Shown here in pieces: positions 1,788 to 64,000 of a DNA stretch of 64,000 nucleotides. This DNA comes from Sphingobacteriales bacterium (GTDB lineage: Bacteria > Bacteroidota > Bacteroidia > Chitinophagales > CAIOSU01). Every line of letters starts with the position of its first letter. Positions within the stretch are counted from its first letter, which is position 1. Made by a program: the position numbers and the translations under genes. The stretch covers positions 1-64,000 of the forward strand of contig JAIXOI010000055.1 of NCBI GenBank assembly GCA_027486795.1, given 5' to 3'. The notes below the pieces were generated by a model. It made no database searches and was not told the origin of the DNA. It saw only the letters and a program-made list of their open reading frames with translations.

Positions 1788-3740
1788 CTACTCTAATATG
1801 GTAACCTCCGTGCGGCGGTTTTTGGCACGGCCATCTTCGCTGCTGTTGTCTGCCAATGGTTTGTTGGCGCCATACCCCTTAGCTTTAAGGCGGGCTTTAT
1901 CAATACCCGCATTTACTAGGTAATTAACCACTTCATTGGCGCGCTTTTGCGATAGGTCGAGGTTGTTGGCTTCGGTGCCTACATTATCGGTATGTCCAGC
2001 TATTTCAAGTTTTATAGCTGGGTTTATTTCCAGAAATTTCATCAACCTGTCCAACTCGCTTTTCGATTCGTTTTTGAGCTTGTAATTACCCGTTTCGTAA
2101 AATACATTATTCAACACCACGGTGCTCTTCGAGGAAATAGGCTCAAGCAGTATATCTAGCTTTTGGTAGTTGTTCTGCTTATTGATTGGGAAATTATAAG
2201 AGTAAAACAAATAGCCAGGTTGGTTGATGCTTAAGCCATAATTGCTACCGGTGGGCAACGTTAGCAAAAACTCTCCACTTTGTGCATCAGGCACTATCAG
2301 GTTGTTGGTTTGGCCAGTGGCAAGGTCGATAAACTCAATTGAAGGAAGTAAAACTTTTTTGGTGCTCTTATCTTTTACCGTGCCCGTTACATAGGTTACC
2401 TTTTTGGGCCTTGCCGCTAGTGGCATTTCAAACCCATATATATCAAGATTATTGTTGAGGGTAAACCTATCGGTGGCAAAGTATGCTGAATCACCATTAA
2501 TATTAACAAAAATTCCACCTTCGTAATAGTATGAATTGATGGGGTAGCCCAGGTTGATTGGTTCGCTCCAGCCATTCTCTTGCTTGCGAGCATAATAAAT
2601 ATCGGCATCGCCAAAGCCCGGTCGGCCGTCGCTGGAGAAGTAGAGCGTTTGCCCATCAGGGTGTATGTAGGGCCGTTCGTCAATGGTTGGGGTATTTATG
2701 GTTGGGCCTAAGTTTTCAGGTACGCCCCAGTTTCCATCGGTTTGCATTCGGCTCACCCAAATATCCAACATGCCCTGCCCGCCAGGCCTTGAGCTTACAA
2801 AATACAACGAACGGCCATCGCCACTAATACAAGGCTGGGTTTCTTTATACTTGGTATTGACGTTAGGGCCTAGGTTTACGGGTTTGCCCCAAGTATTGCC
2901 AACCCGTTTCGAAACATAAATGTCGCAGCTGCCGTAGCCGCCGCCGCTCTCGCAAATAGTAAAATACAGCTGCCTTCCATCTGGCGAAATACTGTGAGCG
3001 CCTTGGTTTGCATCTTGGGTATTTACATTGCTACTTACCGATATTGATTTGCTCCATGCTGTCTCTTCCCATTGGCTCACTAGTATGTCTTCTTGCAGGT
3101 GCATGGTGCCTGGGTCTTTTATCTGGCGTGTAAAGAAGAGATATTTGCCATCGGCCGTAAGGGCAGGGAAATATTCATTATCGGCACTGTTTACCCCTTG
3201 CCCTGCAGGTTTTGGAGTGAATGTCACAGGGTGTTTAATGGCTTCTTTAGCAAATACTATGCTGCTTTCCAGCAGTTTCAGTTCACCTTCGCGCTTTGGA
3301 TTAATGGCACCAACTTTTCGGTAGGTATCAAAGTAGTATTGCGATGAATCGAACTGCTGAATGTAAAAACAGCTTCGTGCCAGATAATAAAAGGCCTCCT
3401 TACTTTTGTTCGGGTCCACCTTCAGCATTTCTGTAAAATGGAATTTCGATTGGCTGTATTTGCGGGTTTGGAAGTACAAATAGCCCAGCCGTTCGTTAGC
3501 GAGCATGAAGTCGGGCTGTATTTTCAATGCATCCAATAGCGATTGCTCAGCCTCTGCAAAGCGGTCCCAGTTAAGGTGCTCAATGCTTTCATTATACAAG
3601 TCAAAGGCTTTCTTGTTTACTTTTTGCGGCTGTGGCTGGGCAATAGCTGGTGCAAAGCCCAATAGCAATAGTGTTAAAACCAATAGCCACTGGTTCAAGG
3701 TATATCTAAGTACTTGTGCGTTTGCAGTGATATTTCCCAT
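1788..3740 (-). CDS. PorE-like OmpA family protein (TPR, WD40-like propeller, OmpA C-terminus)
   Basis: A 650-residue exported protein. In order it has a signal peptide ending APAIAQ, TPR units (about residues 40-150), WD40-like PD40 blades with recurring FPALTADGKYLFFTR and YFSSDGRPGFGD-type motifs (about 180-440), a carboxypeptidase-regulatory-like domain (about 445-530), and a C-terminal OmpA peptidoglycan-binding domain with AGHTDNVG and LSQKRANEV. This is the order known for PorE, the T9SS component that links the machine to peptidoglycan, although Bacteroidota carry several such paralogues. The ATG at 3740 overlaps queE by 46 bp. An alternative TTG at 3698 overlaps the queE stop as TTGA and would give a shorter leader, but without the leader's arginine. 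A second protein with this order starts at 62330. Confidence 0.88.
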   Translation of the reverse strand: MGNITANAQVLRYTLNQWLLVLTLLLLGFAPAIAQPQPQKVNKKAFDLYNESIEHLNWDRFAEAEQSLLDALKIQPDFMLANERLGYLYFQTRKYSQSKFHFTEMLKVDPNKSKEAFYYLARSCFYIQQFDSSQYYFDTYRKVGAINPKREGELKLLESSIVFAKEAIKHPVTFTPKPAGQGVNSADNEYFPALTADGKYLFFTRQIKDPGTMHLQEDILVSQWEETAWSKSISVSSNVNTQDANQGAHSISPDGRQLYFTICESGGGYGSCDIYVSKRVGNTWGKPVNLGPNVNTKYKETQPCISGDGRSLYFVSSRPGGQGMLDIWVSRMQTDGNWGVPENLGPTINTPTIDERPYIHPDGQTLYFSSDGRPGFGDADIYYARKQENGWSEPINLGYPINSYYYEGGIFVNINGDSAYFATDRFTLNNNLDIYGFEMPLAARPKKVTYVTGTVKDKSTKKVLLPSIEFIDLATGQTNNLIVPDAQSGEFLLTLPTGSNYGLSINQPGYLFYSYNFPINKQNNYQKLDILLEPISSKSTVVLNNVFYETGNYKLKNESKSELDRLMKFLEINPAIKLEIAGHTDNVGTEANNLDLSQKRANEVVNYLVNAGIDKARLKAKGYGANKPLADNSSEDGRAKNRRTEVTILE

Positions 3741-15321: not shown

Positions 15322-15333
15322 GTTGTTTTTTTA

Positions 15334-15402
15334 GACACAAGACACAAGACACAAGACACAAGACACAAGACAAAAAATACAACCTGCCTGCCGGCAGGCA
15401 GG
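15334..15402 (+). repeat. GACACAA array plus 20-bp perfect palindrome
   Basis: About five GACACAA units (15334-15372) are followed by the perfect palindrome CCTGCCTGCCGGCAGGCAGG at 15383-15402, then another GACACAA piece. The same palindrome recurs twice at 19548 and 19610, also embedded in 7-bp arrays. It lies just after the M23 stop and could fold into a strong hairpin. Confidence 0.9.
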
Positions 15403-18838: not shown

Positions 18839-19540
18839 ATGAAATTCTCTCAACCTGACTGTGCACATTGTAATGGCCGACGCGACTCGCTCTTTAGTTT
18901 TTGCAAAATGGCCGAAATTGATGAATTGAACGAAAGCAAATCGTGCAATAGTTATAAGCGTGGTCAAGTAGTGTTTGAAGAAGGGGCCAACCCGTTGGGC
19001 GTGTACTGCATCAATTCGGGTAAGGTAAAGCTGTATAAGCACGCATCCGATGGTAAGGAGCAGATTATACGTATTGTTAAGCCTGGCGATTTTTTAGGAT
19101 ACCGCTCCATGTTGGCGGGCACCAAGTATAAGCTCTCGGCATCGGCCATGGAGGATACTGCTGTGTGTATGATTCCTAAAGCTACTTTCTTGGAACTGTT
19201 TCGCACCAATGAGAGCTTCTCTAAAGGCCTTTTAAGCGCGCTGTGCAGCACTTTAGACGAGAGTTATACCAAGATGGCCGACATAGCTTACAAGCCCGTG
19301 AGGGGCCGTGTAGCCGAAGCGCTGCTTTTTCTCCATAACTTTTATAAAGATGAGCAAAACCCCCATGGCATCATTAACATAGGACGGGAGGATTTGGCCA
19401 GCTTTGTGGGTACGGTAAAGGAAACTGCTATCCGTATGCTCAAAGAGTTTAAAGATGAGGGCCTAATTGAAACGGATAAAAGCAATATTATTATTAAAGA
19501 TTCGGAAGGTTTATTGCATATTAGTGAGCTGTACGATTAA
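18839..19540 (+). CDS. Crp/Fnr family transcriptional regulator, possible Fe-S sensor
   Basis: A 233-residue regulator. It has a cyclic-nucleotide-binding-like beta barrel (about 30-130; GVYCINSGKVKLYKHASDGK, IVKPGDFLGYRSML) and a C-terminal HTH_Crp domain (GREDLASFVGTVKETAIRML as recognition region). Four cysteines precede or begin the barrel (C8, C11, C22, C36), a pattern compatible with an oxygen-labile cluster as in FNR, though the spacing is not the E. coli one. ATG 18839 (MKFSQPDCAHC) was chosen over an upstream frame at 18797, because it keeps this cysteine-rich head and sits behind a good -7 element. The position behind two usp genes suggests control of stress or low-oxygen survival. 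Confidence 0.9.
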   Translation: MKFSQPDCAHCNGRRDSLFSFCKMAEIDELNESKSCNSYKRGQVVFEEGANPLGVYCINSGKVKLYKHASDGKEQIIRIVKPGDFLGYRSMLAGTKYKLSASAMEDTAVCMIPKATFLELFRTNESFSKGLLSALCSTLDESYTKMADIAYKPVRGRVAEALLFLHNFYKDEQNPHGIINIGREDLASFVGTVKETAIRMLKEFKDEGLIETDKSNIIIKDSEGLLHISELYD

Positions 19541-19547
19541 GGCACAA

Positions 19548-19699
19548 CCTGCCTGCCGGCAGGCAGGGACACAAGACACAAGACACAAGACACAAGACAC
19601 AAGACACAACCTGCCTGCCGGCAGGCAGGGACACAAGACTCAAGACTAAAGACTCAAGACGCAAGACGCAAGACGCAAGACGCAAGACGCAAGACGCAA
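19548..19699 (+). repeat. Composite array: two 20-bp palindromes and three classes of 7-bp units
   Basis: CCTGCCTGCCGGCAGGCAGG occurs at 19548-19567 and again at 19610-19629, separated by GACACAA units. After the second copy the 7-bp units change: GACACAA, GACTCAA, GACTAAA, GACTCAA, then six identical GACGCAA copies (19658-19699). The blocks of a single variant suggest recent expansion by slippage. The array starts eight bases after the Crp/Fnr stop and is non-coding. Confidence 0.93.
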
Positions 19700-36753: not shown

Positions 36754-37485
36754 ATGAGGCAGTTTGGGTTGATTGGTTACCCTTTGGGGCATTCGTTTTC
36801 GAAAGGGTATTTTACCCGCAAGTTTGAGCTGGAGGGCATTGCCAATGCCGTTTATGACAATTTTGAGATAGAAAATATCCAAGCGTTTCCGCAGTTGCTT
36901 CAAGCGCACCCTAACCTAAAGGGTTTGAACGTAACTATACCTTACAAACAATCCATTATTCCTTTTTTGGATGATATTGATTTCTCGGCGTTGATAATAC
37001 GTGCCGTAAACACGGTTAAGTTTACAAAAGGAAAAACCAAGGGTTATAATACCGATTACATTGGCTTTCGCGATTCGATAAGGCCCTTGCTTCAGCCCCA
37101 GCATACTAAAGCACTAGTGCTAGGTACTGGTGGTTCATCCAAAGCAGTGGTGTTTGCTTTAACCCAAATGGGCATTGAGGTGCAACAGGTTTCAAGAGAG
37201 CCAAAGGATGCGGAAATAGGGTATGCGGCTATAGATGCGAAAACAATACAAGCGTATACCATTATTGTAAATACTACCCCATTGGGTATGTATCCTAATA
37301 TTGAGGCTGCCCCCGAAATCCCTTACCAATACATCACCAGCCAGCATCTGCTTTTCGACTTGGTTTACAACCCGGCCGAAACGCTTTTTCTCCGAAAGGG
37401 TAAAGCACAAGGTGCTATTGTTAAAAACGGACAAGAAATGCTGGAGCTTCAAGCCGAAGCCGCTTGGAAAATTTGGAACGGTTAA
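36754..37485 (+). CDS. aroE: Shikimate dehydrogenase
   Basis: Reduces 3-dehydroshikimate with NADPH in the shikimate pathway. The 243 residues show the shikimate-binding GYPLGHSFSKGYF (S14, S16), the catalytic lysine K65 in NVTIPYKQ, the NTD of GYNTDYIGF, the NADP-binding GTGGSSKAV (shorter than the E. coli type) and the C-terminal GQEMLELQAEAAWKIW. Length and motifs are typical of the Bacteroidota form. Its stop overlaps by three bases with the convergent PorP-type gene. Confidence 0.95.
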   Translation: MRQFGLIGYPLGHSFSKGYFTRKFELEGIANAVYDNFEIENIQAFPQLLQAHPNLKGLNVTIPYKQSIIPFLDDIDFSALIIRAVNTVKFTKGKTKGYNTDYIGFRDSIRPLLQPQHTKALVLGTGGSSKAVVFALTQMGIEVQQVSREPKDAEIGYAAIDAKTIQAYTIIVNTTPLGMYPNIEAAPEIPYQYITSQHLLFDLVYNPAETLFLRKGKAQGAIVKNGQEMLELQAEAAWKIWNG

Positions 37486-38453
37486 TCAACCTTCCTCGAA
37501 TTTCTCTCTTGCTCTTTTGGCGCCAATTGCACTGTAAGGCTTACCTCAAAGTTGTGGTAGCGCAAAAAGGCATCTTGCTGGTTGCCGATGTAGTTGTAGG
37601 TGCCTTGAAAGCGGAACTTCTTTTTTAATTGAAACCCAGCCGTTGGGCTAAGAACTTGGTTGGCCGAGTAGCCAAAGCCCGCAAATAAAGCCTTATCATA
37701 GTCGGCCATAAAACCTATTGAAAACTGAGCTCTCTCGCCAAAACTCGTTGCATTGCTGTTGCTGCTGGCGGTGGCAAAATAGAGATATGGCTCTAGGTGT
37801 AGCTTTTCTATTAGCTCAATGTCATACGACAAATAGGCATTCATTACCGGACTGTAGTTGCCAATAAAATTGCCTCCAATACCACTGATACGGAAGTTGC
37901 CTAAATGCGATACCGATATGCCCGCATTCAGTTTTTTGTATTGGTACCAAGCACCTAGGCTAAAATCAAGGTGGTTGCTGCTGGCGCGGCCCGTTATGAT
38001 GGGGTCGTTGCCACTTATGGTGCCTTGCGTGTTGGCAAAAAACCTTCGGTAGGCCACGCCCGCTCCAAATTGCAAGCGGTGGTCATTGTTTATTTGCCAG
38101 CGGTAGGCATAATTGCCACCAGCGCTTAAGGTATAATACGTGCCAGCAACATTGGGTGCATTAAATACCACAAAGGCCCCCCAAGCGCCTTTTATAGTTG
38201 GGCAAGGCCTATCAAATGACCCATAGCCTACATTTAAAGGATTAATTGCACTGGCAGTTCCTGTAACTTTAAATAGCCCAGTCATGCTATGCAAGTGCAG
38301 GTTTAGCTTATCGCTGCTGCCAGCATAGGCTGGGTTGTATAGTAGTTGGTTTTGGGTATGCTGGGTAAGGTAGTAATAAAACGGGTATGTGCCCGCTTGG
38401 GCGGTAAAGGCAGCAAGGGTTATAAAGAGATGGATAATTAACTGACGCACCAT
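37482..38453 (-). CDS. PorP/SprF family outer-membrane protein (T9SS-associated)
   Basis: A 323-residue beta-barrel protein with a signal peptide ending in TAQAG. The start of the mature part, LTQHTQNQLLYNPAYAGSSD, is the PorP/SprF signature. The body is beta-rich with glycine and aromatic alternation, and the frame ends in a charged tail. These proteins partner T9SS; SprF-type members are needed for export of type B cargo. Two type B cargo genes lie about 14 kb away, but this one stands alone, convergent with aroE. ATG 38453 was taken over the TTG two codons upstream. Confidence 0.9.
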   Translation of the reverse strand: MVRQLIIHLFITLAAFTAQAGTYPFYYYLTQHTQNQLLYNPAYAGSSDKLNLHLHSMTGLFKVTGTASAINPLNVGYGSFDRPCPTIKGAWGAFVVFNAPNVAGTYYTLSAGGNYAYRWQINNDHRLQFGAGVAYRRFFANTQGTISGNDPIITGRASSNHLDFSLGAWYQYKKLNAGISVSHLGNFRISGIGGNFIGNYSPVMNAYLSYDIELIEKLHLEPYLYFATASSNSNATSFGERAQFSIGFMADYDKALFAGFGYSANQVLSPTAGFQLKKKFRFQGTYNYIGNQQDAFLRYHNFEVSLTVQLAPKEQERNSRKVD

Positions 38454-38532
38454 AATCAAATATAACGCTAGCCTGTTACAATTAACTTACTGGTTAGTAT
38501 TTATTATGAAGTAAAAAATCAGTGTCAAACCA

Positions 38533-49056: not shown

Positions 49057-49120
49057 AATGTACCAATGTGCTAATGTACCGATGTGCAAATGTGCTAATG
49101 TGCTGATGTACCGATGTGCT
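49057..49120 (+). repeat. 8-bp tandem array before purC
   Basis: Eight units of the form (A/G)ATGT(A/G)C(C/T/A) stand head to tail: AATGTACC, AATGTGCT, AATGTACC, GATGTGCA, AATGTGCT, AATGTGCT, GATGTACC, GATGTGCT. A ninth imperfect unit follows. This is a second minisatellite type with a different period from the GACACAA arrays. Confidence 0.85.
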
Positions 49121-49159
49121 GATGTTGAGATTTGCTAGCGCGGGAGTTACTCAAGTGCC

Positions 49160-51369: not shown

Positions 51370-51629
51370 TCCATTTAAAATAAATTGCTTGGTTAATATC
51401 AGTTGATTATGGCCTTTCTGCGAAATAATTTTTAACATGATTTTTATCCTAAAGTATAGTGTTTTAAATGGTTTCAATAAATTGGTGCAGTAAGTTGTGC
51501 ACAAAGTAGCCTAACACTCATTAGGATATTTTGGCAATATGATTTAACTTCTCGCAAAATTAACCTTGTGCTAACGAACCGCTAACAGTTGGCACTAGGT
51601 GTTTTAGCCTAATTAACCAACTTACTGCT

Positions 51630-52052
51630 ATGTTGAAACTGCTACTCACCCTCTATATTGGGGTATTTGCTACTGCTTTTGCCGCATTTGGCCAAGGCGA
51701 TTGGACCTCACTGCATAACGATGGGAAAGTAGCCATCGAATATCGCTACAGCGATTGTCACCGCCCAGAGGATGGTATACACAAACAGAACGTGCATTTT
51801 AGGTTTACAAACCTAACAGCAAGCACTCAAAAGGTAAATTACCAAAAGAAAGTATCGTACAACAACAAACCGGCCGCTGCCCCCAGCGCTGAAAATACCT
51901 TTGCAGTTACCTTGAAGCCCACAGAAGTATTGGAAGGCAGTTGCAGCCTAAAAGATAATAGGCTGGCCATTTTTGTGAAAATGCTCGACGGCACTTCGCA
52001 ATCAGTAATGACTTCTTTTGAATTGGTGAACATTAAAGTGACCCAACCTTAA
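51630..52052 (+). CDS. Small secreted protein of unknown function
   Basis: A 140-residue protein with a signal peptide (MLKLLLTLYIGVFATAFAAF, cleavage after FGQ) and a beta-strand-rich mature part of about 117 residues with two cysteines (YSDCHRPEDG and LEGSCSLKDN) that could form a disulphide. No family is recognised. It ends 13 bases before the SprB-repeat gene, so it probably belongs to the same transcript as the adhesin genes. Confidence 0.75.
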   Translation: MLKLLLTLYIGVFATAFAAFGQGDWTSLHNDGKVAIEYRYSDCHRPEDGIHKQNVHFRFTNLTASTQKVNYQKKVSYNNKPAAAPSAENTFAVTLKPTEVLEGSCSLKDNRLAIFVKMLDGTSQSVMTSFELVNIKVTQP

Positions 52053-52065
52053 AAAACTGCTACCA

Positions 52066-55000
52066 ATGGCTTCAAGAATCATAATTCTCGTTTCATTAAT
52101 TTTTGCTGGGTGCGCGCAGCTTTTTGGCCAGTGCGAGGTTACTGCATCTGTTTCGCCCAGTAATAGTGTTTGTGGCGACTGCGCTGTGCTTACTGCTTTT
52201 GGCCGTGGCCAAGGCCAGCAGGTGTTCAACGAAACGTTCAATAGCGGCAGCCCTTCGGGCTGGGCCTTTACCCAGCAAGCAACCTTTACCAACCCCTGCA
52301 GTCCGGGTGGGGTAAATGGCACCACCCATTTATGGATGGGCAGTGCATCGGCAGTGCCGCGCTCGTTGGTTACGCAATCATATAACTTTACCACTGCTAC
52401 TTCGGGTGCCACAGTTTGTTTTGACATGCTATTTGCCGAACAAGGGGGCGCTGCTCCTTGCGAAGGCCCTGATGAGCCGCAAGAGGGAGTATTTTTGCAA
52501 TATTCTACCGATGGCGGCAGCACATGGACGACTATTTTCTATTTCGATCCCAATGGGGGCAACGACCCTGACTTGGTAAACTGGAACAATTGGTGTTTTC
52601 AATTGCCCCCTGCCGCATTGGGTCCCAATACCCAAATTCGCTTTTTTCAAGATGCTGATTCAGGTGCTGATTTTGACCACTGGGGCATCGATAACGTGGC
52701 TATTTATTACAACGATCCTACCTACAATATTACTTGGCAGCATGATGGTTATTCTTATGGCCAAGGCAACTCTGGTGGTGCAAGCCCTAACAGGGTTTGC
52801 CCACAAACCATTACCAATTATTTTGTGCTGATGACCAATGGCACTACTACCTGCCGCGATACAGTTACACTTACAGTGGTAAACCCAACTATAGACATTA
52901 ACGCTGGCAACGATACCAGCATTTGCCCAGGCACATGTGCCAACTTAAATGCTACGGCTAAAGTGATAAAAAGCCCAGAGCAAACTCGCACGTATGCCAA
53001 TAACGAATTTCAAGTTTTGGCACCAGGTACTCCTGCTGTAATCAACATCAATGTTACTGGATTGAATAACCCAACTATTAATCCTGTAACAATCCAATCG
53101 GTTTGCATTGGGTCTCTTACATATTTTGGTTCGGGACTTGATTTTAGTGTGTTTCCACCCACCTTTGTTACAATCACGGCTAGGAATCTTAGATATGAAT
53201 TAATTTGTCCTGATGGCACGGTGCTTACCTTGCTTCCACAAAACGTTATCAGTGCCGGTAATACCATCACTAATTTATGTTTTGTACCAGGAGGGCCAAA
53301 TATAACTACCGGTTCGCCACCTTATACGGGTGGTTTTGCACCGAACCAGCCATTTGCCAATCTTAATGGTTGCACTGCAAACGGTGTTTGGAGTTTGAGA
53401 GTAACCTTGAATGGCGCAGCTTTAGGTACCGGTTTCTTTTTTAACTGGAACATTACTTTACTCGACCCAGAAATAAGCTACCCAGCTGACATAACCTGGA
53501 GCCCCACCACCAACATGACGGGCTCAACAACCCTTACCCCGCAAGTTTGCCCAACGGGTACAACTATCTATACCCTTAGCGCCAGCGATACGGCAGGATG
53601 CGTAACTGTAACCGACCAAGTAACCGTTACGGTCTTACCGAGTTGCTGCAACCTAACCATTGGTGCCACGGCTACCAACCCGGCTTGTGGCGCTAGCAAT
53701 GGCGCAATCAGTATAAACGTTACGCAGGGCACCGGGCCTTATACCTATACTTGGACCCCAGGCGGTGTATTAGGTGCATCTCGTACCGGATTAACCGCTG
53801 GCACCTATACCATCAGGATAACCGATACTGGTCAGCCTACCTGTTTTAGGGATACCACTATTACCTTAACTTCTCCTAATTCGCCAGTAATAAACAGCAT
53901 TACCCCAACCGCTGAAACTTGCGCTGGGTTTAACGATGGCAGTATTGCGGTAAACGCCAGTGGCGGAACCGGAGCACTTACTTATGCTTGGACACCAGCT
54001 AATACGGGTGCCAACATCAATAACCTTGCCGATGGCAACTACTCCGTTACGGTAACTGACGCGAGCGGCTGCTCTGTTACAGGTAGCACAAGTGTAGCTG
54101 CTGGGCCGCCTTGTTGTAACTTGGCTATTTCGGCAAGCACTGCAAGCCCTACTTGTGGCGGTACCAATGGAAGCATAACCATAAATGTAACCACTGGAAG
54201 TGGCAACTACACTTATGCTTGGACAGGTGGCATAAGTGCTGCTAATACTCTTACAAATATTGGTGCAGGTACCTACAGTGTAACCGTTACCGACGTTACG
54301 CAAGGTTGCAACCGCGATACTACCATTACTTTGAGTAGCGCCAATGAACCAACTATTGGTAACATAGCCAGTACTGCTGAAACTTGCCTAGGCGACGGCG
54401 ATGGCACGGCAACGGTAGCTGCTTCAGGTGGCACTGGAGCCTTAACTTATAACTGGAACACAACCCCAGCTCAGGCTACAGCAACTGCTACCGCACTTGT
54501 ACCTGGTAGTTATAGCGTAACGGTAACTGATGGAGTGGGTTGCCAAGCGGTATCGAATGTGCTGGTTGCAGCGGGGCCAAACTGTTGTAATTTGAGCTAT
54601 AACATTGCTACTACTAATCCAACTTGCGGTAATAACGATGGCGCGATAAATATTACCAACTTGGGCGGCTCAGGCAGTTATACTTTCCTTTGGAGCGATA
54701 ACTCGTCAGGTCAAAATTTATTGAACGTTGGTGCCGGAACTTATAGCGTTACCATAACCGACAACACCTACCCTAACTGCCAGTTGGATACTACCATATC
54801 GTTGAGTAACCCTAATGCACCGGTAATTAGCAATATCGCGGCCACTGCTGAAACATGCTTAGGCGCAAGTGATGGCTCGGTTGATATGACCATAACTTGC
54901 GGGGTTGCGCCTTGCACTATTGGTTGGAGCAACAGCCAAACTACCGAAGACCTTAGTAACTTGGCCGCTGGTAACTATTCTGTAACGGTTACCGATGGTT

Positions 55001-56712
55001 TGGGCTGCCAAGCAACGGGCTTTATTGTAGTCCCTGCTGGGCCTAATTGTTGCAATTTATCTTTCGATTTGGATGTGATAGACCCAAGTTGTGGCCAAAA
55101 CAATGGTTCACTTGAAGTAACTAACATAACTGGTACTGGTCCGTTTATCAATATCTGGAGCAACGGTGCATCTACAGCATTAATTAATAACCTAGCAGCC
55201 GGAACGTATACTGTAACCGTAACTGACAACGGCCAACCCAACTGCCAACTGGATAGCACTATTACCATTAGCAATGCTGGTTCGCCTGTTATTAGCAATA
55301 TATCGGGCACCGATGAAGCTTGTGCAGGTGCTGGCAATGGCACCGCAACTGTAACTGCTGCTGGTGGGGCCGCGCCGTTAACCTACACTTGGAGCAACTT
55401 AACTACAGGCGCCAGCATTACTGGCTTAGCACCTGGCACTTATACGGTAACAGTAACAGATGCCAACGGATGCTCTGTAACTGGGCAAGTGGTTATAGGC
55501 ACTGGCCCGGTATGTTGTAGCTTATCGGCTTCGGCAACTACCACCCCAGCAAGTTGTGGCACTGCGGATGGTAGCATAACCGTAACGGTTGTTGCAGCTT
55601 CTGGTACAGCGCCATTCCAGTACAACCTTAACGGCGGCAGCTTTGGTGCTAGCAACGTTTTTACAGTTGGTGGCGGAAACTATGCCGTTATTGCACGCGA
55701 TGTAAACGGCTGCGATACCACTTTGTTAGTGACTGTAAATGAAGCCAACAATACTTTAGTGCTTACCCCAAGCAGCTTCAACCCAACCTGCCCTGGAGGC
55801 ACGGATGGCTGGGTAGGCATTAATGTAGCGGGCGGCACTCCACCAAATATTACCACATGGTCGACAGGTGCGAGTACCGATACCTTGCTAAACCTCGGTG
55901 CAGGTACTTATAATGTTACGGTTACCGATGTGTCGAATTGCTCGGCTTTCTTGAGCATTACATTAACCAATCCGGCTCCTCCGAGTGTTAACTTGGGCGA
56001 TGATATCGACTTATGCGATGGACAAACAATTGGCCTGGATGCGGGGTTGGCAGGTGCCTATACATGGTCTACGGGCGATACTACGCAAGGGATAACTGCC
56101 TCCGCTAGCGGTACTTATAGCGTTACCATTACCAATGCAGGCGGCTGCACCGCCACCGATGATGTTTTGGTTACTGTGGCTGCACCTATAATCGTTGATG
56201 CCGGAGAGGATACCACTATCATTCAATTTGAAAGTGTGCTTGAACTAACGGCCACCGTTACCGGTTCGGCGGGTGGCAGCTATTTATGGACCCCAAGCGA
56301 TTATTTGGCTTGCGACAATTGCCAAACGACCTCACTTTCGCCGGATAGCACCACTACCTATGTGCTGGTATATACCGATGTATTGGGTTGCACCGCATTT
56401 GATAGTGTAACCATTACGGTTTTGCCGGGTGAATATATCGCCATTGTGCCCAATGCTTTCAGCCCAAATGCCGATGGAACAAACGACATACTGTATGTAT
56501 ACCATAAAGGCGTAAGACGCCTTGTTTTCAGGGTGCACGACCGATGGGGAGAGAAGGTGTTTGAAACCGACGATATGAACAAAGGTTGGGATGGAACGCT
56601 CAAAGGCGTTAACGCCCAAGACGGGGTGTATGTATGGGATCTCTATGTTGAGTTTTTAAACCTGCAAATACCTGCCCAACGCTCAAAAGGTAGTGTATTG
56701 CTGCTAAAATAA
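52066..56712 (+). CDS. Giant SprB-repeat T9SS type B surface protein
   Basis: A 1548-residue adhesin-like protein. After a signal peptide (MASRIIILVSLIFAGCAQLF) there is a jelly-roll-like region (about 40-225; FNSGSPSGWAF), an Ig-like unit, and a P-domain-like region (about 320-470). Next come SprB-type repeats (about 527-1235) built from pairs with C-G/N-G starts, Y-x-W cores and GTYSVTVTD ends. Two Ig or PKD-like units follow, and a CHU_C/gliding-associated type B sorting domain (NAFSPNADGTNDILYVY, DRWGEKVFETDD, GWDGTLKG). SprB of Flavobacterium is the gliding adhesin; here the repeats show the fold but not the function. It is probably displayed on the cell surface. Confidence 0.9.
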   Translation: MASRIIILVSLIFAGCAQLFGQCEVTASVSPSNSVCGDCAVLTAFGRGQGQQVFNETFNSGSPSGWAFTQQATFTNPCSPGGVNGTTHLWMGSASAVPRSLVTQSYNFTTATSGATVCFDMLFAEQGGAAPCEGPDEPQEGVFLQYSTDGGSTWTTIFYFDPNGGNDPDLVNWNNWCFQLPPAALGPNTQIRFFQDADSGADFDHWGIDNVAIYYNDPTYNITWQHDGYSYGQGNSGGASPNRVCPQTITNYFVLMTNGTTTCRDTVTLTVVNPTIDINAGNDTSICPGTCANLNATAKVIKSPEQTRTYANNEFQVLAPGTPAVININVTGLNNPTINPVTIQSVCIGSLTYFGSGLDFSVFPPTFVTITARNLRYELICPDGTVLTLLPQNVISAGNTITNLCFVPGGPNITTGSPPYTGGFAPNQPFANLNGCTANGVWSLRVTLNGAALGTGFFFNWNITLLDPEISYPADITWSPTTNMTGSTTLTPQVCPTGTTIYTLSASDTAGCVTVTDQVTVTVLPSCCNLTIGATATNPACGASNGAISINVTQGTGPYTYTWTPGGVLGASRTGLTAGTYTIRITDTGQPTCFRDTTITLTSPNSPVINSITPTAETCAGFNDGSIAVNASGGTGALTYAWTPANTGANINNLADGNYSVTVTDASGCSVTGSTSVAAGPPCCNLAISASTASPTCGGTNGSITINVTTGSGNYTYAWTGGISAANTLTNIGAGTYSVTVTDVTQGCNRDTTITLSSANEPTIGNIASTAETCLGDGDGTATVAASGGTGALTYNWNTTPAQATATATALVPGSYSVTVTDGVGCQAVSNVLVAAGPNCCNLSYNIATTNPTCGNNDGAINITNLGGSGSYTFLWSDNSSGQNLLNVGAGTYSVTITDNTYPNCQLDTTISLSNPNAPVISNIAATAETCLGASDGSVDMTITCGVAPCTIGWSNSQTTEDLSNLAAGNYSVTVTDGLGCQATGFIVVPAGPNCCNLSFDLDVIDPSCGQNNGSLEVTNITGTGPFINIWSNGASTALINNLAAGTYTVTVTDNGQPNCQLDSTITISNAGSPVISNISGTDEACAGAGNGTATVTAAGGAAPLTYTWSNLTTGASITGLAPGTYTVTVTDANGCSVTGQVVIGTGPVCCSLSASATTTPASCGTADGSITVTVVAASGTAPFQYNLNGGSFGASNVFTVGGGNYAVIARDVNGCDTTLLVTVNEANNTLVLTPSSFNPTCPGGTDGWVGINVAGGTPPNITTWSTGASTDTLLNLGAGTYNVTVTDVSNCSAFLSITLTNPAPPSVNLGDDIDLCDGQTIGLDAGLAGAYTWSTGDTTQGITASASGTYSVTITNAGGCTATDDVLVTVAAPIIVDAGEDTTIIQFESVLELTATVTGSAGGSYLWTPSDYLACDNCQTTSLSPDSTTTYVLVYTDVLGCTAFDSVTITVLPGEYIAIVPNAFSPNADGTNDILYVYHKGVRRLVFRVHDRWGEKVFETDDMNKGWDGTLKGVNAQDGVYVWDLYVEFLNLQIPAQRSKGSVLLLK
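53644..55740 (+). repeat. Internal ~156-residue supra-repeats in the SprB-like gene
   Basis: Segments starting with C-C-N-L (or C-C-S-L) begin at 53644, 54112, 54583, 55048 and 55513, giving periods of 468, 471, 465 and 465 bp. Each full unit holds two SprB repeats: one after the CC pair and a second beginning TAETC or equivalent. The fifth is incomplete and diverged. The regular periods and multiples of three show repeated in-frame duplication. Confidence 0.9.
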
Positions 56713-56807
56713 TTTAACTTAACATCGACCAATGCCCTGACCCTGAATAATTGAATGGCAACAACTGAACTAATTAAACTAACCAACCAGAATAACGAGA
56801 CTAGGTT

Positions 56808-59800
56808 ATGAAAATGGCCCATAATTATCAACGAGGCTTTGCCGTATGGCTATTGCCATTGCTATTGCTGTGCACCTTTGCATTGCATGCCCAGCAAACC
56901 ACTTACCGCATCAACTATGATATTTCACTGTTTGATTTGCCAGGAGGCTTAGTACAAGCTTCCTCAGGCAATGTTGTATTTGCAGGCACCAACACCAGTT
57001 TTATACCAATATCTGGAACCCTTACTGAGGTAAACAACATTGGTACTGTGGTGTGGTCAAAGCGCTATAATGCGCTATCGGTAGCAACCGATTTTCAAGA
57101 TATTAAGCGAGTAGCTTCTGGCGGATACATCATTACAGGCTCCAATGGTTCTGATTTGATGTTGATGCGCACCGATGCTTTGGGTAACGTTACGTGGGCC
57201 AATACCTACCAAGTAGCCAATACTAGCAGTTTTGGCAATAGGGTTATACCTACTTCCGATGGTGGTTTTGTGGTAGCTGGCAGCATTACCGGTGCCGACC
57301 CTGATGGAGCTGGTGCATTGGTTAGGCAAGACTCCACTAATATGTATTGTATAAAGGTTAACTCAAGCGGAGCGCTGCAATGGGGCAATGTGTTTTTCTA
57401 TACCACAGCCTTTGTTGACGACCATTCGTTGGTTGATGTGGCTGAAGTATCGGATGGTTACATTTTTACGGGTTCTGTGAACGAGAGTGGCAACGATGGA
57501 CCTACCGATGCGGTGGTTATCAAAACAAATACATCCGGTGCTCGCCAATGGTCGTATCGTTACGGAGGGGGTAATAGCCAAGATGGCTCCTCTATTAGAG
57601 CGTTGAGTGGAAGCGAGGTGCTTATCTCAGGTGGTGATAACGGAAGGCCCTATTATATTCGAATGAGTTCGGCAGGCAGCGTTACGGCTGGAAGCAGATA
57701 TTCCTTCGGTTTCTTGAGTTTTGATCAAGCTTTCGGCACCGATATTGTGCAAACCAATGACGGCAATTATGCTATGTTTGGTACTTATATTGGTTTCAAT
57801 GTTCCGCCTGTTTTTTCAGCGTTTATCCTTAAAATCAATCCTTCCAATGGTAGTTTGATTTTCCAGAAATACTACTCACCTACCTCTACATCCTTTTTAA
57901 GCATCTCGCTTTTGCCAGAGGGTATTCAGGCTGCCGACTCATCGTATATGATGGTTTCTACAGGCTTTGGCTCTGGCGGTAGTGGCGGATATGATTATGA
58001 ATTGATTAAAGCAGATAAGAACGGCTTGCTCAATAACACGGGTTGTCCAGAGGCTAATTTGAACCTATCTCGGGCAAGTTTTACGCCCGGCTTATCGAGT
58101 TTTACCCCTATCACAACCACTGCTGTTTCGGCAAGTGCATTAACCATGGTTATTACCACACCCAGTACCACATCGGCTGTTGCGTGCCGCACTATTATTT
58201 GTAACCGCCCAGAGGCTGCCAATAGCGTAACGGCTACCAACAACAACTTCTGCCCAGGAGGTTCAAGTCAAATAAATGCCAATGGTACAAGTAGCAACGT
58301 GGTATATAAAGTATATACAGCATCAACGGGTGGTACTTTATTAGGAACCACACCACTCACCGTTAGCCCAATCATAACTACTACCTATTATGTAGAAACT
58401 GAGGACACGGCTAACCCCGGTTGCGTAAGTGCAACCCGCCCTTCCGTTACTATTACGGTTTTGCCAGCTGCTCCGTTGCAACCGGGCACTATTAGCGGCC
58501 CAAGCCCTGCTTGCCCTGGTAACCAAACTTATACTATTGGTGCCGTAACCAATGCTAGCAGCTATACTTGGAGCGTAAGCGGAGGTGGCACTATTTCGGG
58601 TAGCGGAACTTCCGCCTCTGTAAACTGGACCACACCGGGCACCTATACCGTGTCGGTAACTGCAACCAATAGTTGCGGTACCAGCCCTGTGCGAACGCTA
58701 TCAGTTACCGTAAGCAATCCTCAACCAGCGCAACCCGGTGCAATTACGGGCAATACAAATCCATGCCCAGGCACCGAAAGCTACACTATAGCCGCAGTAA
58801 CCAATGCAACAAGTTATACTTGGAGCGTAAGTGGCGGAGGCACTATAACTGGCAGCGGCACATCGGCTAGCGTAAGCTGGACAACATCAGGCGGTCCTTA
58901 TACAATATCGGTAACTGCCACCAACAGCTGCGGAACCAGTGCTGCACAAACCTTGCAAGTAAACGTTCAAGCAGGCCCACCAACTACAATTGGTGCCATT
59001 ACCGGCCTTACCAATGTGTGCGTGGGTAGCCAACCATACAGCGTACCAGCAGTTGCTGGCGCTACTACCTATACCTGGAGCGTAAGCGGTGGCGGCAGCG
59101 TTACTGGTGGTCAAGGTACGCGCAACGCAACTATTAACTGGACTTCTGCAGGTACTTACAATGTATCTATCACTGCTTCAAACGGCTGTGGAAGCGTAAA
59201 TGCTACGCCAATAACCGTAACCGTTGCCGGCGCGCCACCTATAACCCCAGGCCCAATAACAGGCACTAATACTGCATGCACAGGCAACCAAACCTATACT
59301 ATACCACCAGTTGCAGGCGCCGATAGCTATACTTGGAGCGTAAGCGGCGGTGGAACGGTAGTTTCGGGTGCCAATAGCACCAGCTTTACCATAAACTGGA
59401 CCACATCGGGCACGCATACTGTATCGGTTACTGCTACCAATGCTTGTGGCACTAGCAGCGCGGCTACCACATCGGTTACCGTTTCTCAATCGGTTCCTCC
59501 GGTTCCTGGAGCTATAACTGGTTCAGCTAGCGTTTGTGCAGGTAGCCAATTGTATAGTATTGCAACTGTGGCAGGTGCCACAGGCTATACTTGGGCGGTA
59601 AGCAATGGTGGTAGCATAACTAGCGGGCAAGGTACCAACAGTATTGCTGTTAACTGGGCAACCCCCGGTGGACCCTATACTGTAACCGTAGTTGCTACCA
59701 ATATTTGTGGCAGCAGTAGTTCGTCTGATTTACAAGTTTCCGTATTACCAGCTAATCCTGCGGCACCTGCCAGCATTACAGGAAATACACCTGTTTGTTT

Positions 59801-62315
59801 TGGCAGCGAAACCTATACCGCAGCGGCAGTAGCAGGAGCTTCTGGATATACTTGGAGCGTAAGCGGCGGAGGCACCATTGCAACTAATGGCAACCAAACG
59901 GTAAATATTAACTGGACAACAGCCGGAACTTGGACGGTTTCAGTTACAGCCCAAAACCAATGTGGCAGCAGCAGTGCTACTACCTATAGCGTAACCGTAT
60001 TGCCTGCAAGCCCACCAACACCAGGCAATATAACTGGTCCGTTGGGTGTATGCCCTGGTTCGGTAACTTATAGCATACCTACCATATCTGGGGCAACTGG
60101 CTATACCTGGACGGTAGGTGCTGCTGGCACTATCACCAGCGGGCAAGGTACCGAAAGCATTGATGTTACTTGGGCTTCGGCCTCTGGTACGTACACCGTT
60201 TCGGTAACTGCCGAAAACCAATGTGGCAGCAGCGCCGCCTCATCGGTACAGGTCAACTTAACACCGGGTGCACCAACAGGCACTCCAACTATTTCAGGTA
60301 ATGATTTGCCTTGCCCAGGCCCACAAACCTATATCGTTGGTGGTGTTACTGGCGCAAGCGATTACACTTGGACAGTAAGCGGTGGTGGTACCATTCAAAC
60401 GGGACAAGGCACTGGAACCATTATTATCAATTGGACTGCAACAGGCGGCCCTTACACCATTGATGTTACCCCTTCAAACGCTTGTGGCAACGGCACATCC
60501 AATACTTTTGATGTAATCGTTGATGGCCCGCCAGTTTTGGGTGCAGCTACCGTTACTGGCAACAACACCCCGTGCCCTAGCAGCGAAAACTATACCATTA
60601 GTTCAGTACCTAACGCAACAGGCTATACTTGGACATTGAGCGGTGGTGGAACCATCACTAGTGGTCAAGGCACTGCTGCAGTGGCGGTTAACTGGACCAC
60701 ATCTGGCGGACCATATACGCTTAGCGTAAACGCCACCAATGCTTGCGGAAGCAGTGCCTTGGCAGCAACTTATAATGTAACCGTGCAACCTGGCCCACCA
60801 ACTACGCCTGGTGCCATTGCAGGTATTAATAGCGTTTGCCAAAATACCAATGGCGTGGCATATACTATAGCCAGCGTAACCAATGCCACTAGCTACACTT
60901 GGAGTATAAGTGGCGGAGGCACCATAGCATCGGGCCAAGGTACTACCAATGCCACCATCGATTGGACAGGTACTCCGGGTAACTATACGGTTTCGGTAAC
61001 TGCCACCAATTCTTGCGGCACCAGCACTGCATCAACCCTTAATGTAACCATTACCCCAGGTGCACCCGCTCAACCGAGTAGCATAATTGGGGCGGCTAAT
61101 ATTTGCCCAGGTGTTGAGCCATACAGCATAGGAGCAGTAACTAATGCAACGGGCTATACTTGGACATTGAGCGGCGGCGGTACCATCGCAACCGGACAAG
61201 GTAGTAATAGCATTACCATAAACTGGACCACCAGCGGTGGCCCTTATCAATTAAGCGTAATTGCTACCAATGCTTGTGGTAATTCAACTGCACAAACTAT
61301 TGATGTTACGGTTAATGCAAGCCCAACAGCACCTAGCATTATTACCAGTGGCGATACCATTTGCGAAGGCGATTCGGCAACTATTACGGCAACCGGTTCA
61401 ACGGGTGGAGCTATTACTTACAACATATTTAGCGCACAAACAGGCGGCAGCTCATTGGGTGTTTCACCACTAACCGTTAGCCCTATTGTAACTACTACTT
61501 ACTATGTAGAGGTGATCAACGATTTGGGTTGTCGCTATAGTGGTGGACGTGTTCCGGTTACTATAGTGGTATCGCCTGCACCTGTTGCTCCGGTTATTAC
61601 TGGCAATAACGGGGGCGTTTGTTACAACGAAAGTGCAACGCTTACCGCAACGTCTTCCAACTCAACTATTACTTGGTGGAATGCTGCAACTGGCGGTACG
61701 TTATTAGGTTCGGGTAATACCCTGAACACTGGCGCATTAACCAACACTACCACCTTCTATGCTGAAGCTACCAACGCAAACGGCTGCGGTAGTTTAACAG
61801 GCAGGGTGGCAGTTACAGTAAATGTGGCGCAATTGCCTACTGCAACATTAACCAGCGATGCTCCTGACAACAGCATTTTCATTAACCAAGCCCTTATTGT
61901 AACCGTAGAGCCGAGTGACTACACTAGGTACGAGTTTTTCTTGAACGGTACTTCGGTACAATTGGATAGCATCAACACATGGGGCAGCAGTGCTTTCAAC
62001 GATGGAGATGTTGTTTCGGTAATTGTAACCGATGGAGGCTGTGTAGGCAATGAAGTGGAATTGACTGTTAGGGTTACCGACCTGCCAAATGCCTTTACCC
62101 CGAATGGCGATGGACGCAACGACGACTTCTTGAAAGGTTTTGAACTGGTAATTATCAACCGTTGGGGCCAAGAGCTTTATAATGGTTTTGATGGCTGGGA
62201 TGGGTACTACAACGGAGAGCGGGTTTCGCCAGGTACCTACTTCTATATTGTGCGTGTGCCAGATATAACGGACACGGATAAGGTATTGAAGGGATCTGTA
62301 TTGGTACACTATTAA
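56808..62315 (+). CDS. Giant PKD-repeat T9SS type B surface protein
   Basis: An 1835-residue protein. A signal peptide ends in LHAQ. A propeller-like head (about 30-465) has delta-60-like motifs (SGGYIITGSNGSDLMLMRTD, TSDGGFVVAGS). An Ig_7-like unit comes next (about 470-555), then 11 PKD-like repeats of about 86 residues (about 557-1503), each with two cysteines, a YTWSVSGGGTI core and a VSVTATNSCG end. Two more Ig_7-like units follow, then a type B sorting domain (NAFTPNGDGRNDDFLKGFEL, NRWGQELYNG, WDGYYNG). It is likely a long stalked surface protein secreted with its upstream partner. It starts 95 bases behind the SprB-like gene and precedes a PorE-like gene by 14. Confidence 0.9.
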   Translation: MKMAHNYQRGFAVWLLPLLLLCTFALHAQQTTYRINYDISLFDLPGGLVQASSGNVVFAGTNTSFIPISGTLTEVNNIGTVVWSKRYNALSVATDFQDIKRVASGGYIITGSNGSDLMLMRTDALGNVTWANTYQVANTSSFGNRVIPTSDGGFVVAGSITGADPDGAGALVRQDSTNMYCIKVNSSGALQWGNVFFYTTAFVDDHSLVDVAEVSDGYIFTGSVNESGNDGPTDAVVIKTNTSGARQWSYRYGGGNSQDGSSIRALSGSEVLISGGDNGRPYYIRMSSAGSVTAGSRYSFGFLSFDQAFGTDIVQTNDGNYAMFGTYIGFNVPPVFSAFILKINPSNGSLIFQKYYSPTSTSFLSISLLPEGIQAADSSYMMVSTGFGSGGSGGYDYELIKADKNGLLNNTGCPEANLNLSRASFTPGLSSFTPITTTAVSASALTMVITTPSTTSAVACRTIICNRPEAANSVTATNNNFCPGGSSQINANGTSSNVVYKVYTASTGGTLLGTTPLTVSPIITTTYYVETEDTANPGCVSATRPSVTITVLPAAPLQPGTISGPSPACPGNQTYTIGAVTNASSYTWSVSGGGTISGSGTSASVNWTTPGTYTVSVTATNSCGTSPVRTLSVTVSNPQPAQPGAITGNTNPCPGTESYTIAAVTNATSYTWSVSGGGTITGSGTSASVSWTTSGGPYTISVTATNSCGTSAAQTLQVNVQAGPPTTIGAITGLTNVCVGSQPYSVPAVAGATTYTWSVSGGGSVTGGQGTRNATINWTSAGTYNVSITASNGCGSVNATPITVTVAGAPPITPGPITGTNTACTGNQTYTIPPVAGADSYTWSVSGGGTVVSGANSTSFTINWTTSGTHTVSVTATNACGTSSAATTSVTVSQSVPPVPGAITGSASVCAGSQLYSIATVAGATGYTWAVSNGGSITSGQGTNSIAVNWATPGGPYTVTVVATNICGSSSSSDLQVSVLPANPAAPASITGNTPVCFGSETYTAAAVAGASGYTWSVSGGGTIATNGNQTVNINWTTAGTWTVSVTAQNQCGSSSATTYSVTVLPASPPTPGNITGPLGVCPGSVTYSIPTISGATGYTWTVGAAGTITSGQGTESIDVTWASASGTYTVSVTAENQCGSSAASSVQVNLTPGAPTGTPTISGNDLPCPGPQTYIVGGVTGASDYTWTVSGGGTIQTGQGTGTIIINWTATGGPYTIDVTPSNACGNGTSNTFDVIVDGPPVLGAATVTGNNTPCPSSENYTISSVPNATGYTWTLSGGGTITSGQGTAAVAVNWTTSGGPYTLSVNATNACGSSALAATYNVTVQPGPPTTPGAIAGINSVCQNTNGVAYTIASVTNATSYTWSISGGGTIASGQGTTNATIDWTGTPGNYTVSVTATNSCGTSTASTLNVTITPGAPAQPSSIIGAANICPGVEPYSIGAVTNATGYTWTLSGGGTIATGQGSNSITINWTTSGGPYQLSVIATNACGNSTAQTIDVTVNASPTAPSIITSGDTICEGDSATITATGSTGGAITYNIFSAQTGGSSLGVSPLTVSPIVTTTYYVEVINDLGCRYSGGRVPVTIVVSPAPVAPVITGNNGGVCYNESATLTATSSNSTITWWNAATGGTLLGSGNTLNTGALTNTTTFYAEATNANGCGSLTGRVAVTVNVAQLPTATLTSDAPDNSIFINQALIVTVEPSDYTRYEFFLNGTSVQLDSINTWGSSAFNDGDVVSVIVTDGGCVGNEVELTVRVTDLPNAFTPNGDGRNDDFLKGFELVIINRWGQELYNGFDGWDGYYNGERVSPGTYFYIVRVPDITDTDKVLKGSVLVHY
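58479..61318 (+). repeat. Eleven tandem ~86-residue PKD-like repeats
   Basis: About 2840 bp divide into 11 units near 258 bp. Each encodes P-G-x-I-x-G, a first cysteine (CPG or CxG), Y-T/S-I, A-T/S-x-YTW-S/T-V, GGG-T/S-I/V, GQGT or similar, NWT, and x-CGxS. The units differ enough in DNA sequence that the expansion is not very recent, but the protein pattern is tightly held. Confidence 0.9.
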
Positions 62316-62329
62316 TCTTGCAACTAGCT

Positions 62330-64000
62330 ATGAAATCGACAACTATCATCATACTGATGCTACTTACCGTAGGTGCGGCTTGGGGGCAATCGAGAAAAGA
62401 ACTGGCAGACAAAGCCTTTGAGCATAAAGAGTATTACGCCGCCATTGATTTGTATAAAAAGCATTTGGAGAAAGACCGCAACACTGCCAACAATGGTGAG
62501 GTGTACTTTAATGTAGCGGAATGCTACCGCCATATACTCGACTATAAAGAGGCATTGGATTGGTATAACAAAGCTCAAGGTGCCCAATATGAGCAACCCA
62601 ACTTACACTTTCAGAAGGGTAGGGTATTGTTAAACCTTGGTGAGTACAGCGAAGCTAAAAAGTCGTTGGATAAATTCTTGGAAACGCAGCCAAACGATAA
62701 AGATGGACTGCGATTGAAAACCAATGTTGATTTTGCTTTGAGCGTAAAAAACGACCCGCCGTCGTTGTTTACTGTTGTAAACGAACAGTTGCTCAATACT
62801 TCAATGAGCGATTATGGGGCTTACTATTTTGAAGATAAAGTAGTGTTTACCTCGTCGCGAATGGAAGATGGTGGCAACGACAAAACCTACATGGTAGATG
62901 GCCAAGGTTTTTCAAACTTCTTTCTGGCTAACTACAACAACGAAGGCAAAACCTGGGATAAGCCAACCAAATTGGATGGCATCAGCAGCACCTTTAACGA
63001 TGGGGTATTTACATATAGCGCTGATACAAAAATGGCCTATTTTACCCAATGCAGCGGCGAAAAAGGCGAGAAATGCCGCATAATGCAGAGCAGCTACAAT
63101 GCTTTTACCAAGTTGTGGAATGCGCCTGAACCCATTAATTTCCCCGGCGAGCAAGTGGAGATGGTGCACCCAACGGTAAGCAAAGATGGCAATTGGATGT
63201 GGGTAGTGAGCCGTAAGGTCGATGGAAAGGGTGGTAGCGACATTTGGCTGCTGGAGCGCCGTGGCCTAGGTTGGGGCGAGCCTGTAAATGTGGAAGTATT
63301 CAACACCGAGTACGACGAAGCTTATCCCGTGTATTTCAACGATACCACTATGTACTTCTCCTCCAATGGCTTTACGGGTATGGGAGGATTGGATTTGTTT
63401 GTGTCGGTAAAGCGTGATGGACAATGGACCAAGCCAAGCAACCTAAGGGCACCGTTCAACTCTAATGCCGATGACTTTTTGATGGTGTTTAACAAGGACA
63501 AATCGGAAGGTTATTTCTCGTCAAACCGAAATGGTGGTAAAGGTAGCGATGACGTTTATTCGTTCTTTACAACACCTATAAACCTTACTTTGAACGGCAA
63601 TGTGAAGGATGTTGATGGTTTAACACCGTTGAAAGGTGTGAAGGTTTACCTTACCGGTAGCGATGGATCATTGGATAGCACCCTTACCGATGCCAATGGC
63701 AACTACAGCTTTGTGCTGGACAAAAACGTGGATTATAAAATAAACGTAAGCTTGCCAGAGTACTTTGGAGACTCAAGGAAAATGACCACCCAAGGCGAAT
63801 TGTACAGCAAAGACTTTTCGAAAGGTACTGGCTACGATTTCGATTTTGCCTTGATGAGAATCCCTAAAACCGAAATTACCATCGACGACATTTATTATGA
63901 CTACAACAGTGCAGTGCTTAGGTCGGAGTCTTTGGGAAGTTTAGATAAGCTAGTGAAGTTGTTGGATGACTCGCCGGACGTGCAGGTGCTTATCAATTCG
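62330..64000 (+). CDS. PorE-like OmpA family protein, truncated by the window end
   Basis: The frame from ATG 62330 stays open to the last base (557 codons). It encodes a signal peptide (MKSTTIIILMLLTVGAAWGQ), TPR units (about 20-140), WD40-like blades (about 150-410; VVFTSSRMEDGG, MYFSSNGFTGMGGLDLFV, EGYFSSNRNGGKGSDDVY), a carboxypeptidase-regulatory-like domain (about 415-500; GNVKDVDGLTPLKGVKVYLT), and the beginning of an OmpA domain (IDDIYYDYNSAVLRSESLGS). The order is the same as in the gene at 1788-3740. Directly behind two type B cargo genes, it may help their secretion or anchoring to peptidoglycan. The stop lies beyond the window. Confidence 0.88.
   Translation, partial: MKSTTIIILMLLTVGAAWGQSRKELADKAFEHKEYYAAIDLYKKHLEKDRNTANNGEVYFNVAECYRHILDYKEALDWYNKAQGAQYEQPNLHFQKGRVLLNLGEYSEAKKSLDKFLETQPNDKDGLRLKTNVDFALSVKNDPPSLFTVVNEQLLNTSMSDYGAYYFEDKVVFTSSRMEDGGNDKTYMVDGQGFSNFFLANYNNEGKTWDKPTKLDGISSTFNDGVFTYSADTKMAYFTQCSGEKGEKCRIMQSSYNAFTKLWNAPEPINFPGEQVEMVHPTVSKDGNWMWVVSRKVDGKGGSDIWLLERRGLGWGEPVNVEVFNTEYDEAYPVYFNDTTMYFSSNGFTGMGGLDLFVSVKRDGQWTKPSNLRAPFNSNADDFLMVFNKDKSEGYFSSNRNGGKGSDDVYSFFTTPINLTLNGNVKDVDGLTPLKGVKVYLTGSDGSLDSTLTDANGNYSFVLDKNVDYKINVSLPEYFGDSRKMTTQGELYSKDFSKGTGYDFDFALMRIPKTEITIDDIYYDYNSAVLRSESLGSLDKLVKLLDDSPDVQVLINS

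Follow-up and report, generated by a model that had tools for sequence, protein, structure and literature searches.

A predicted Chitinophagales operon that probably combines two T9SS cargo units: a PKD-repeat giant with a PorE-like OmpA protein and a PorP carrier, and an SprB-repeat giant

Type B substrates of the T9SS need carriers of the PorP/SprF family, and it is not settled in the Bacteroidota how individual giants of this type are matched to their carriers. In Porphyromonas gingivalis the cargo PG1035, PorP and PorE occur in one complex, the PorP-PG1035 part of which forms without PorE (PMC9143113). PorE follows the domain plan TPR, beta-propeller, CRD and OmpA, and its OmpA domain binds the DAP of peptidoglycan via Asp576, Asn584 and Arg591 (PMC7192894). 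In Flavobacterium johnsoniae the cargo of a PorE-type operon, Fjoh_3952, is static, whereas SprB moves (PMC12618676). The CXC motif in the C-terminal tail of the gliding carrier SprF forms the disulfide by which this carrier rides the track (PMC12635249). The link between static display and PorE has already been proposed by others.

The window, a stretch of 64,000 nucleotides (positions 1-64000 of contig JAIXOI010000055.1, here C53), lies in the genome of a Sphingobacteriales bacterium (GCA_027486795.1; 3.9 Mb, 59 contigs). The end of the window had been described from the letters alone (the sequence-only reading) as four genes on one strand, separated by 13, 95 and 14 bp, and ORFs were found exactly there on the plus strand (51630-52052, 52066-56712, 56808-62315 and 62330-64000, the last continuing beyond the window). 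The domain content ascribed to them, namely SprB repeats, PKD repeats, type B sorting domains and a PorE-like OmpA protein, was confirmed with Pfam and NCBIfam profiles. A PorP/SprF gene had also been predicted past position 64000; one is present at contig positions 64219-65127 (+), separated from the OmpA stop codon by 5 bp. The run thus comprises five genes on the same strand with short gaps between them, presumably transcribed as one operon; the PorP/SprF gene is the last and is followed by a convergent gene. The features are:

51510..51525, no strand assigned: palindrome CCTAA-N6-TTAGG, upstream of the operon within a block conserved among four species of the genus
51630..52052, plus strand: small secreted protein of 140 aa with a predicted signal peptide; Ig-like beta-sandwich in which Cys43 and Cys105 are invariant
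52066..56712, plus strand: SprB-repeat giant, 1548 aa, with a Reelin-B/P-domain-like N-terminal region, eight SprB-repeat stretches and a class II type B sorting domain
56808..62315, plus strand: PKD-repeat giant, 1835 aa; a beta-propeller head is followed by 11 PKD_6 stretches, then Ig_7 and a type B sorting domain of class A (Pfam, AF2)
62330..64000 and on to contig position 64213, plus strand: PorE-like OmpA protein, 627 aa, with TPR, beta-propeller, CarboxypepD_reg and OmpA domains
64219..65127 of the contig, plus strand, outside the window: PorP/SprF carrier, 302 aa (PF11751, 221 bits; TIGR03519, 222 bits)

The run is best explained, at a rough probability of two in three, as two independently conserved T9SS cargo units in one operon: a static module of PKD giant, OmpA protein and PorP (unit 1), and an SprB unit, the giant with its small protein, which would use another carrier (unit 2). 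The operon as a whole is classed with the known cargo-PorP-PorE display operons, as a variant of them. The present analysis contributes a second gene order together with its clade, the two-unit make-up of the operon and the mismatch between the sorting-domain class of the SprB giant and the neighbouring carrier.

Both giants have PF13585 above its cut-off and are type B substrates by that measure. TIGR04131 is above its cut-off in the SprB giant, while in the PKD giant it scored 31 bits in the protein scan and 35.5 in the genome search against a cut-off of 35. The head of the PKD giant is a predicted beta-propeller (AF2, pTM 0.84; propeller matches, E 2e-13), followed by the PKD_6 stretches (E 1.8e-197), Ig_7 and CHU_C. 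The OmpA protein matches the profiles TPR, PD40, CarboxypepD_reg and OmpA, its domains follow the order in PorE, and its best family is T9SS_PorE with 400 bits over the full protein, which does not reach the NF052230 cut-off of 600. Its putative peptidoglycan-binding residues D560, N568 and R575, equated by motif with Asp576, Asn584 and Arg591 of PorE (PMC7192894), are invariant in the ortholog alignment A1. A lipobox cysteine, as expected of the lipoprotein PorE, was found neither in this protein nor in its orthologues. Because it lies below the PorE model cut-off and has no lipobox, the protein is, on its sequence, classed as PorE-like and not filed as PorE. The carrier is above both cut-offs (22.3 bits for PF11751 and 90.6 bits for TIGR03519), which places it by sequence within the PorP/SprF family.

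A search with this PorP in 60 genomes (own included) gave best matches of 50-100% identity in nine and of at most 38% in all others. The matching OmpA gene lies directly upstream in 9/9 of the genomes with at least 50% identity. This search is an independent sample of the architecture, unlike the named loci, which were gathered by OmpA similarity. Together the two sets amount to 28 distinct loci, five of which were present twice under different identifiers and were counted once. PorP adjoins OmpA in 28/28, and the order cargo-OmpA-PorP on one strand, i.e., the adjacency expected of a static PorE-type display operon, is found in 26/28, the other two ending at a contig edge just upstream of OmpA. 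The loci with this order range over Chitinophagales and Bacteroidales, and the closest named records are MAGs labelled Chitinophagales, Chitinophaga or uncultured. Among more remote OmpA relatives, some have no PorP and the others are arranged as cargo-PorP-OmpA. The PKD giants of the seven other loci compared are orthologous, with 32-97% identity in the head and 54-99% in the last 160 residues. With the same order kept in different species and families, chance was set aside as its origin. No mention of cargo-OmpA-PorP was met in the literature searched, which comprised open-access papers only, subscription papers being outside the scope. Putative wall-anchored display modules thus have a second possible gene order, in Chitinophagales and Bacteroidales alike. 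The proposal of a dedicated secretion-and-anchor module in the sequence-only reading stands for this conserved trio.

In the PorP tree the cargo-OmpA-PorP loci form a clade with support 100/100, separate from the sampled cargo-PorP-OmpA loci and from the core PorP adjoining GldK-L-M-N. It was also considered whether the OmpA-PorP pair is itself the core PorE/PorP of the genome, its place beside the giants being incidental. The OmpA protein does have the second-best PorE score in the genome, but the core PorP sits with GldK-L-M-N in another clade and a lipoprotein at C14:38055 has a higher PorE score (neither protein reaching the family cut-off), so that this explanation is very improbable. Elsewhere in the window, a second PorE-like protein of 650 aa with TPR, propeller and OmpA domains is encoded at 1788-3740 (-). 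It scores 298 bits against T9SS_PorE, and no PorP was detected in its vicinity. The PorP/SprF-like gene which had been noted 14 kb away is real (37482-38459, -), but it is very divergent (branch length 3.07), has neither cargo nor OmpA as a neighbour and adjoins a Na/H exchanger gene.

By analogy, the Porphyromonas PG1035-PorP-PorE complex is the most likely model for how unit 1 works. The PorP barrel dedicated to the PKD giant would draw the type B sorting domain of this giant out of SprA, the translocon, and would keep the giant bound on the surface of the cell. From the periplasm, PorP may be gripped by the TPR/propeller part of the OmpA protein, with the OmpA domain binding peptidoglycan, and in this way the propeller-headed PKD stalk would be fixed to the cell wall. 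Common to both systems are a type B cargo, a PorP barrel and a TPR-propeller-CRD-OmpA protein with the same peptidoglycan-binding residues. Only here do the three genes stand side by side, with a PKD cargo of 1835 aa, an OmpA protein without a lipobox and a separate core PorP; the absence of the lipid anchor of PorE counts against the two-unit reading. The OmpA protein is unlikely to be necessary for export itself, given that the Porphyromonas PorP-PG1035 complex assembles in the absence of PorE (PMC9143113). The F. johnsoniae operon Fjoh_3952-3951-3950 likewise combines a type B substrate, its own SprF-like shuttle and a PorE homologue (PMC12618676), but its order is cargo-PorP-PorE instead of cargo-OmpA-PorP, and a second cargo of another class stands upstream only here.

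If one or both giants were mobile adhesins driven by the T9SS motor, as with SprB and SprF, the operon would be a gliding module. SprB repeats, one feature of the SprB gliding adhesin, are present, and GldK, L, M and N as well as a GldJ-like protein are encoded in the genome. SprB repeats are not known to be specific to gliding. The Cys-X-Cys of gliding SprF was sought in the operon PorP, which has no cysteine in its tail or anywhere else, and a C-tail cysteine is absent from the PorPs of its clade in 28/28 orthologous loci. Lacking the cysteines that tie gliding SprF to the track, these carriers fit a static anchor. As the CXC tail is absent from all 21 PorP proteins of the genome, the missing cysteine cannot by itself separate static from mobile cargo here. 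In addition, the PorP is paired with a putative peptidoglycan-binding partner, and in F. johnsoniae such a partner accompanies static cargo (PMC12618676). The locus shares with SprB-SprF (PMC12635249) the SprB repeats, a type B domain and a PorP/SprF-family carrier, and differs in the carrier tail, in the presence of an OmpA anchor and in the sorting domain of the SprB giant, which does not match the neighbouring carrier. A gliding module is thus improbable.

Unit 2 begins with the small secreted protein, the fold of which was predicted with pLDDT 86 (AF2). No Pfam or NCBIfam family was above cut-off for it; a YezG-like identity (18 bits, under cut-off) was rejected, as was assigning a function from its PDB matches, which are Ig-like folds of a generic kind and have Z scores no higher than about 7. 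The giant behind it has SprB repeats (PF13573, E 1.5e-51) and a CHU_C/TIGR04131 C-terminus. Homologues of the small protein occur in 14/60 genomes (own included), always directly upstream of a long ORF, and nine of these genomes are outside the genus. At the eight non-genus loci read further (L131, L271-L274, L276, L277 and L279) the N-terminal region identifies the long ORF as an SprB-type giant, weakly so in L277 (genome G055). No PorP or OmpA gene was seen beside the pair in these eight loci, of which L272 is truncated. At a further locus (L275) an SprB-type giant stands without the small protein. Relatives outside the genus also have the unit 1 locus without the genes for the small protein and the SprB giant. 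Since the small protein is found with an SprB-type giant at these eight loci, and there without PorP/OmpA, it belongs with the giant and not with the PorP module.

The sorting domains point in the same direction. Classes were defined from sorting domains beside a PorP, grouped by the clade of that PorP: A (cargo-OmpA-PorP, 25 domains), B (19) and II (8), the class II carriers of the training set being all from this genome. With the test case and its close relatives left out, the class models named the class of the adjacent carrier correctly for 51/52 held-out domains. The PKD giant is class A, with 127-139 bits (127 when close relatives were removed), the other two models giving 54 and 57. The SprB giant falls into class II, with 96.5 bits against 51.9 and 47.0, and its orthologues in two genomes of the genus (G001 and G004) are also class II, as are 8/8 complete SprB-type giants outside the genus. 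In a tree of 64 sorting domains, 11 SprB giants and eight class II domains fall on one side of a single branch (19/19, support 0.925); class B is an exact split (0.999) and class A is not one clade. The other orphan sorting domains of the genome are mostly class II. Class is a correlate of carrier choice and not proof of it. As it tracks the carrier clade in nearly every held-out case, the carriers of orphan giants may be predictable from sequence, and the operon, with two giants of different classes ahead of one carrier, offers a natural test.

The view of the sequence-only reading was that a single module serves both giants, the operon PorP carrying the SprB-repeat and the PKD giant and the OmpA protein anchoring both. 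The compact five-gene run speaks for it, as does its conservation within the genus: the two units are joined in the order of the window in G001, G003 and G004, and likewise in G002 as far as the broken contig reaches. In F. johnsoniae, moreover, a single carrier for three substrates is known, shared motifs are necessary but not sufficient for cargo-carrier pairing, and crosstalk occurs (PMC12618676), so that the PorP of the operon might take both. Against this, both a margin of 45 bits and the tree place the SprB giant in class II, and its orthologues in relatives form a separate unit without this PorP or an OmpA gene alongside. One module for both giants is thus only half supported; its extension to the SprB giant is probably wrong, and the view as a whole is unlikely, at a rough probability of one in five.

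On the two-unit reading, unit 2 shares the operon in this genus only, and the SprB giant probably depends on another PorP, one of class II, with its gene at some other place in the genome; candidates are the class II PorPs without a cargo gene directly upstream, namely L008 (beside a GldJ-like gene), L009 and L017. The operon would then co-express two adhesins with separate carriers. It counts against this reading that the five-gene linkage is kept in the genus wherever a contig permits the check, which could mean a shared function. A more speculative and rather doubtful extension is that one operon deliberately co-expresses a static wall-anchored PKD giant and an SprB giant destined for single-cysteine-tailed carriers, possibly coupled to the moving T9SS track. 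If true, a static grip and a movable adhesin would be made together.

SPOR is a peptidoglycan-binding domain, and two PorPs encoded behind type B giants (L003, C30:113620, +; L004, C51:57480, +) carry a fused C-terminal SPOR domain, scoring above the cut-off in L004 and just below it in L003. Such a fusion is possibly the in-cis counterpart of PorP plus an OmpA anchor. The class II PorPs at L009-L018, with or without an OmpA neighbour, mostly have a single conserved terminal cysteine (CPRF-like) and not CXC. Mutual exclusion between a C-tail cysteine and an OmpA neighbour was also considered and was refuted in this genome, where several class II PorPs have both.

A PADLOC search returned nothing but OmpA/MotB-type cross-hits. 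The palindrome at 51510..51525 is possibly an operator or part of the promoter region, judging from its sequence and position. It was rejected as a genome-wide regulatory site, the exact match being found only here and matches with two mismatches not clearly exceeding the control. The heptamer GACACAA, or its complement, forms dispersed arrays in the window at 1-72, 215-247, 15333-15382 and 19539-19699, and a degenerate 8-bp tandem repeat (AATGTACC/AATGTGCT) lies at 49057-49125, upstream of a PhoD-like gene.
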